From: Tenuifilaceae bacterium CYCD
Lineage (GTDB): Bacteria > Bacteroidota > Bacteroidia > Bacteroidales > Tenuifilaceae
Assembly (NCBI GenBank): GCA_036322835.1
Contig: AP027304.1
Location: 248,001-312,000 of the forward strand
Reading direction: 5' to 3'
Length of the DNA: 64,000 nt
The notes under the pieces are model-generated. The model was not told where the DNA came from, did no database searches, and worked only from the letters and a program-made list of their open reading frames with translations. Position numbers and translations under genes: made by a program. Shown here piece by piece: positions 17,936 through 18,378 of this stretch; the stretch's first letter is position 1; every line of letters begins with the position of its first letter.

Positions 17936-17988
17936 CGCCTCTGCGGGGTTAATTCTTGTGGGAGCTACAGGGATAGAACCTGTGACCC
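17936..17988. repeat. Direct repeat, copy 1 (tRNA 3' end plus flank)
   Basis: These 53 bases match 18281-18333 with two differences (17939 and 17975), an offset of 345 bases. The repeat covers the 3' half of the tRNA-Val gene and part of its terminator hairpin. Copy 1 lies at the far side of the GIY-YIG frame. Confidence 0.85.
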
Positions 17989-18032
17989 TCCCGATTGCAT
18001 CGGGATGCCCTGAACCAGATGGACTAGTCCCC
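17959..18032 (-). pseudogene. Decayed tRNA-like sequence
   Basis: A 74-base sequence retains the tRNA order: a 5' acceptor arm GGGGACT facing AGCTCCC (one G-U and one mismatch), a D-arm-like CTGGTTCAGGGCA, an anticodon-arm-like hairpin with an atypical five-base loop, and a T-arm identical to the nearby tRNA-Val except for a G to T change in the T loop (TTCTATC). The discriminator base is A. The abnormal anticodon loop and T-loop change indicate it is not functional. Confidence 0.65.
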
Positions 18033-18273
18033 AATAACTCCTCGATCTTCTTCCGGCTCTTCCAACTCTTTATTTGTCGCTCTCGGGCATAAGCGGCCTC
18101 AAACGTGTCGAACACTTCTGAGTAAACTAATACTCAATCCGAAACTTGCCCTGTAAATCCTTTATGGTTGGTATTGTGACGGCGCAACCGTTCCGCTAAA
18201 TCATCACGGGTAGAACCTACATAGTAGCGGTTCAGCGTTGTCGAGTATAAAATATAGGTATGGCTCATAACAG

Positions 18274-18296
18274 AAAACCCCGCTTCTGCGGGGTTA
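18274..18296 (-). terminator. Terminator of tRNA-Val
   Basis: An eight-base GC-rich stem (18276-18283 with 18288-18295) with a four-base loop lies just after the tRNA on the minus strand, followed by TTCTG. A degraded form recurs next to copy 1 of the direct repeat, followed there by a long T run on the minus strand. Confidence 0.65.
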
Positions 18297-18333
18297 ATTC
18301 TTGTGGGAGCTACAGGGATCGAACCTGTGACCC
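18281..18333. repeat. Direct repeat, copy 2 (within intact tRNA-Val)
   Basis: This copy pairs with 17936-17988, matching at 51 of 53 bases. It spans the terminator arm and the 3' half of the functional tRNA-Val gene, up to the variable region. Confidence 0.85.
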
Positions 18334-18378
18334 CCTGCTTGTAAGGCAGGTGCTCTGAACCAGCTGAGCTAAGCTCCC
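18304..18378 (-). tRNA. tRNA-Val (anticodon UAC)
   Basis: A 75-base cloverleaf on the minus strand. The acceptor stem is GGGAGCT with AGCTCCC plus discriminator A. The D arm is GCTCAGCTGGTTCAGAGC, the anticodon arm CCTGC-CTTACAA-GCAGG with anticodon TAC, and the T arm ACAGG-TTCGATC-CCTGT. All four stems pair perfectly. CCA is not encoded. It is followed by a terminator and then by the GIY-YIG cassette with a damaged tRNA copy. Confidence 0.96.

Follow-up and report, generated by a model that had tools for sequence, protein, structure and literature searches.

Hairpin-marked tRNA gene copies beside small GIY-YIG nuclease genes: a possible new class of minimal selfish element in Bacteroidota

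How does a second, partial copy of a tRNA gene come to lie behind a small nuclease gene while the tRNA gene itself stays intact? The question is raised by one locus in a 64-kb window, the whole stretch of DNA that was analysed. In 5' to 3' order on the minus strand, the locus consists of an intact tRNA-Val(TAC) gene, a terminator, a GIY-YIG frame with its ATG at 18268, a second tRNA-Val part and a decayed second terminator. murF lies on the same strand as tRNA-Val and ends at 18553. The features are as follows.

18303-18378, minus strand: intact tRNA-Val(TAC), upstream of the element (ARAGORN)
18269-18302, minus strand: first terminator copy, CCCCGCAGAAGCGGGG plus a T run, between tRNA and ORF (sequence, direct repeat)
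about 18029 to 18268, minus strand: GIY-YIG domain frame, 80 codons, broken by an in-frame TGA (PF01541, translation)
17958-18017, minus strand: second tRNA-Val part as a whole (sequence)
18006-18017, minus strand: D-loop/D-stem part of the tail, about tRNA positions 18-26 (alignment with the local tRNA)
17989-18005, minus strand: TCCCGATGCAATCGGGA hairpin replacing the 17-nt anticodon arm, tRNA positions 27-43 (sequence, alignment with the tRNA)
17958-17988, minus strand: tail, tRNA positions 44-76 (variable region, T arm, 3' acceptor strand), one mismatch to tRNA-Val (direct repeat, alignment)
17922-17957, minus strand: second terminator copy, decayed (sequence, direct repeat)

A sequence-only reading of the window had reported a 53-base direct repeat on both sides of the GIY-YIG frame, and this was borne out. 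Positions 17936-17988 and 18281-18333 match at 51 of 53 nt, and the repeat lengthens to 67 nt at 91% (17922-17988/18267-18333). The frame has the fold of a homing-family nuclease, matching PF01541 at E 4e-16 in a profile search with the stop masked. Because an in-frame TGA lies at 18134-18136, the window copy of the nuclease is a pseudogene. The peptide GSIPVAPTR, a read-through of the tRNA copy, is confined to the portion of the frame past the TGA. ARAGORN calls the distal copy (17958-18032) tRNA-Cys(gca), but it is absent from the hits of the Rfam tRNA model; this call was rejected as a genuine gene, being a hairpin-swapped tail. The same reading had described a decayed full-length tRNA-like copy at this end. 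The likeness to tRNA held, but decay is not the whole account, as one arm has been exchanged for a conserved hairpin. The TCCCGATGCAATCGGGA-type hairpin occurs once in the window against 0.02 expected. Judged from the relatives of the element, the window arrangement is far above chance. A second tRNA-linked element is present in the same genome (L001, G000:C1:1261481-1261764), with a 5' copy of tRNA-Arg(CCT) carrying CCTGCCTGCCGGTAGGCAGG in the D loop, an ORF interrupted by a TAG stop, and an intact tRNA-Arg(CCT).

Relatives were sought at increasing taxonomic range. Across 27 genomes of the bacterial family, tRNA-Val, Met, Pro and Asn genes are followed immediately on their 3' side by small GIY-YIG ORFs, frequently in tandem arrays with a period of about 350-460 nt. 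Extending the survey to 148 genomes of the order brought in Val(GAC), His, Phe and Arg as further targets. A scan of 84,980 species genomes yielded 291 loci, and linkage was counted in the best 80 of these. All 80 belong to Bacteroidota, and 25 are multi-unit. A tRNA gene lies on the same strand within 500 nt upstream of the ORF in 68/80 and on the opposite strand in 0/80, with a median tRNA-to-ORF gap of 48.5 nt; the chance expectation for such a neighbour is well under 1%. Seven of the 80 are without a tRNA, and 4/7 start less than 250 nt from a contig end. Overall the targets comprise Val, Arg, Met, Asn, Pro, His, Phe, Ala, Thr and Lys tRNAs. These relatives support the earlier proposal of a small nuclease element that is tied to tRNA 3' ends and duplicates them, leaving an intact tRNA outside. 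Because many contigs break at arrays (within or beside them in L154/L155, L159/L161, L202/L204/L205 and L088), true copy numbers are probably above those assembled. Relatives were absent from 50,697 phage records and from 72,556 plasmid records, and IMG/VR viral contigs gave two matches; all three were rejected as vehicles.

To which tRNA does each tail belong? When tails were aligned with their own upstream tRNAs, positions 44-76, and usually the terminator too, matched the local gene, and the D-loop part (about 18-26) was close to it. As the proposed comparison of tail with adjacent tRNA had anticipated, a 22-nt stretch of the tail is the same as in the local tRNA in 26/28 Val tails, versus 5.7% for Val tRNAs of other genomes. 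Between the two matching parts, a TCCCG...CGGGA hairpin of 16-21 nt replaces the 17-nt anticodon arm in 87/124 recognisable tails, at Val, Arg, Asn, Met and Pro tRNAs. Among 56 distinct hairpins, pair 6 is A-T in 45 and C-G in 10, and pair 7 is T-A in 22 and C-G in 25. Because these inner pairs change on both sides in a compensatory manner, the pairing is a conserved trait. Different GC-rich hairpins occur in other clades, lying within one half (3' or 5') of the anticodon arm at Met and Asn tRNAs and within the T loop at Phe and some Met tRNAs.

The hairpin was also searched for blind, using only the pattern GAGCNTCCCG-N4..14-CGGGANGGTC over 392 Bacteroidota genomes. Matches were found in 32/392 genomes, versus none for a reversed-pattern control, and 29/30 loci fetched adjoin a same-strand tRNA (Val, Ala, Arg, Lys, Pro, Thr, Met and others). 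The free inner pairs of these hairpins are complementary in 35/36 cases at pair 6 and 31/34 at pair 7. The conservation of the hairpin suggests that it has a role, although some clades use other sequences or positions. A dispersed genome repeat was rejected for TCCCGA..TCGGGA, which occurs at 4 places in the whole genome that holds the window versus 2 for a control pattern. Hairpin-swapped tails are a source of annotation error, being called tRNA genes with odd anticodons (Cys gca, Pro ggg, Tyr ata, Stop tta, Lys ttt) at window 17958-18032 and at L184, L171, L195 and L208.

The protein is about 80-100 aa long, and Y5, Y16, R27, H31 and E63 are invariant in A1. Median dN/dS was 0.12 and 0.14 (about 0.13), a rough value with dS near saturation, which indicates that the ORF is under purifying selection. 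In a protein tree built on few columns and read for its broad pattern, tRNA-linked proteins split from other small GIY-YIG proteins (SH-aLRT 95). Target labels are clustered on the tree, requiring 45 changes versus 105 when shuffled and including several switches; as judged from this tree, the proteins show a clade-wise target preference with switches. A GIY-YIG protein that runs into its tRNA tail, as the sequence-only reading had envisaged, is not a general trait, and selection on the tail as protein was likewise rejected, since most relatives stop just before the tail or early in it. PADLOC models gave weak matches to PDC-S14 and UzuA for 2/12 members (E 5e-5 to 6e-4).

Not all units have the architecture of the window element. 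In a mirror form, the 5' half of the tRNA is duplicated upstream of the ORF and the intact tRNA lies directly behind it. The 5' copies of Arg mirror elements carry CCTGCCTGCCGGCAGGCAGG in the D loop, and those of Met and Ala carry the TCCCG hairpin in place of the anticodon arm. Autonomous units measure about 0.3-0.5 kb. Tandem arrays of hairpin-swapped tRNA parts that contain no ORF were found at L254, L279, L282, L295, L302 and L304, with periods of 72-218 bp; at L302 the copies are nearly full-length and are called tRNA-Cys(gca) by ARAGORN. Because ORF-less units stand in tandem, amplification is possible without an ORF inside the unit. The arrays, the ORF-less units, the 5'-half mirror form, the many target tRNAs and the death of the window copy all go beyond the earlier reading.

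Empty sites were examined for the manner of entry. Single-tRNA sites, which that reading had named as a check, do exist: in related species one Chryseobacterium tRNA-Arg(TCT) site is empty, holds one or two units, holds a decaying ORF, or holds ORF-less hairpin tails only. At L211 and L254 a foreign terminator lies beside the tRNA, and the distal-most terminator is of the native type found in empty relatives. The right flank of L211 picks up just past the native terminator of the empty locus L275. Such an order is expected if the unit enters within the tRNA gene and restores the 3' end of the tRNA. The empty sites and the terminator order, which is clear in two loci only, the terminators elsewhere being mostly alike and uninformative either way, thus indicate at the sequence level that insertion occurs inside the tRNA gene. 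murF proved unsuitable for locating empty Val sites in the family, as synteny was too poor and tRNA-Val lay near murF in 5 genomes only. An element-borne origin of the window tRNA-Val terminator, judged from the same-genus genome G011, was also rejected, since a prophage of about 14 kb in the G011 tRNA-Val explains the difference. This prophage (L277, G011:C129:59800-74900), with a tyrosine recombinase-like ORF at 13198-14511 and a tape-measure-like protein of 1206 aa, appears to be integrated in tRNA-Val and to have pushed a truncated tRNA 3' half and the GIY-YIG cassette to its far end.

The explanation we favour, with slightly more than even confidence, is that Bacteroidota chromosomes harbour a family of small selfish elements, of which the window copy is a decayed example and which would enter and recognise their targets as follows. 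An autonomous unit comprises a lone GIY-YIG nuclease ORF and, at one end, a partial tRNA copy in which a GC-rich hairpin replaces or interrupts the anticodon arm or, in other clades, the D or T loop. Entry would take place inside a tRNA gene by recombination through the T arm and acceptor. Because the incoming unit would bring a tRNA 3' end and a terminator of its own, the tRNA would remain intact, and the native 3' end would be displaced outward, behind the hairpin. The rebuilt tRNA could serve as a target again, leading to accretion. In the most speculative steps, the hairpin, folded as a cruciform or from a single strand, may be recognised by the nuclease, whose cut may start recombination with a neighbouring or foreign tRNA copy, acting in cis or, for ORF-less units, in trans. 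Against this explanation, direct-repeat recombination alone could produce the arrays, and the lack of relatives in phages and plasmids and their near lack in viral contigs offer no vehicle between cells.

We considered whether the unit might instead be a classical free-standing homing endonuclease, cutting element-free tRNA genes so that repair copies the cassette and the hairpin destroys the recognition site in the copy. The GIY-YIG fold, weak matches to models of group I intron and phage homing endonucleases, and the clade-wise target preference all speak for this. So does a precedent: T6 SegB is a GIY-YIG enzyme encoded beside tRNA genes in T-even phage tRNA clusters, and experiments show that it drives tandem amplification of the tRNA and nuclease segment (PMC13096335). 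SegB itself belongs to a phage genome, and we know of no hairpin-swapped tRNA copies or ORF-less units described there, whereas the present elements are chromosomal and absent from phages. What makes a standard homing gene less likely is that occupied loci retain the intact tRNA and thus any site inside it, although the actual site could lie elsewhere. Site loss would leave unexplained why a structure-conserved TCCCG..CGGGA hairpin recurs in clades with different target tRNAs, and a protein of this size could hardly accommodate a separate DNA-binding domain. We therefore regard homing of this kind as unlikely.

Less probable still is passive duplication, in which tRNA ends are copied by ordinary recombination or replication slippage and the GIY-YIG genes are passengers. 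Long direct repeats ease unequal crossing over, copies inside arrays are often 96-100% identical, and the tyrT operon of E. coli has 178-bp tandem repeats (rtT RNA) behind a tRNA gene, and these contain the tRNA 3' end and a small ORF. The tyrT repeats, however, include only a short tRNA end, occupy a single locus, and have neither a GIY-YIG protein nor a swapped arm. The units studied here measure 72-500 bp, and the Rfam search gave matches to tRNA families only and none to the rtT RNA family. Passive copying does not account for why the hairpin replaces precisely one tRNA arm or why the proteins form a single clade, nor for the target switches, mirror form, foreign terminators and purifying selection. 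A role at the RNA level, in which the nuclease maintains a hairpin-swapped transcript mimic that benefits the host as a regulator or as a decoy for tRNA-cutting toxins, draws on the conserved pairing, on a swap that respects tRNA secondary structure by taking the whole anticodon arm and on the nearly full-length copies of L302, but is just as improbable given that one form keeps only the 3' part of the tRNA and the other only the 5' part, leaving no common tRNA mimic, that many loci in one genus are empty and that copies frequently decay.

Returning to a selfish element that enters tRNA genes, we compared it with other known systems. Phages, ICEs and islands that use tyrosine recombinases at tRNA genes also keep the tRNA intact with a part supplied by the element and leave the native 3' part at the far end, as the prophage in the same tRNA-Val of G011 illustrates; for the present units the terminator order in L211 and L254 reveals the same. 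Unlike those systems, the present units carry no integrase, and a hairpin stands in place of the anticodon arm in the displaced copy; at less than 0.5 kb each, they have room for the GIY-YIG ORF only and not for a tyrosine or serine recombinase. An Rfam search of L010, L146, L128, L113, L001 and L002 gave no intron match, and hence no sign of a self-splicing group I intron fold around the ORF. The closest solved structures by sequence, PDB 1zg2 and 1ywl, are UPF0213/YhbQ-like proteins of the same size and fold; these are stand-alone genes, for which we know of no link to tRNA genes. REP/RAYT systems likewise place a small nuclease-like gene next to conserved palindromes and include non-autonomous palindromic units, but they use another nuclease family and have no known tRNA-gene link. 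A separate clade of small GIY-YIG genes has no tRNA and has direct repeats on its flanks (L002, G000:C1:2234583-2234804; L036, L041, L052, L058, L115). The flanking repeats of L002 are dispersed palindromic repeats, for example ATTCCTGACGGAGCGAAGCGGAGATCAGGAATC, perhaps reflecting a REP/RAYT-like partnership.

Since the element lacks a defining feature of group I introns, of integrase islands and of tyrT repeats, and fits a standard homing gene poorly, it appears to be of a new kind. No published description of it was found in the open literature searched, a coverage that takes in few subscription papers. We give even chances to the view that these loci represent a new class of minimal selfish element, in which a lone GIY-YIG nuclease with a hairpin-tRNA recognition end would move between tRNA genes in 3' and 5' versions, accrete, and mobilise ORF-less units in trans. 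If so, they would be among the smallest known mobile elements, using the most conserved genes of the cell without breaking them, and would be spread over a major phylum yet apparently undescribed. They would account for many of the short GIY-YIG proteins that end in tRNA-derived tails and for spurious extra tRNA calls in the annotation of Bacteroidota, and would offer a case of a structure-marked end that may be recognised by a lone GIY-YIG domain.
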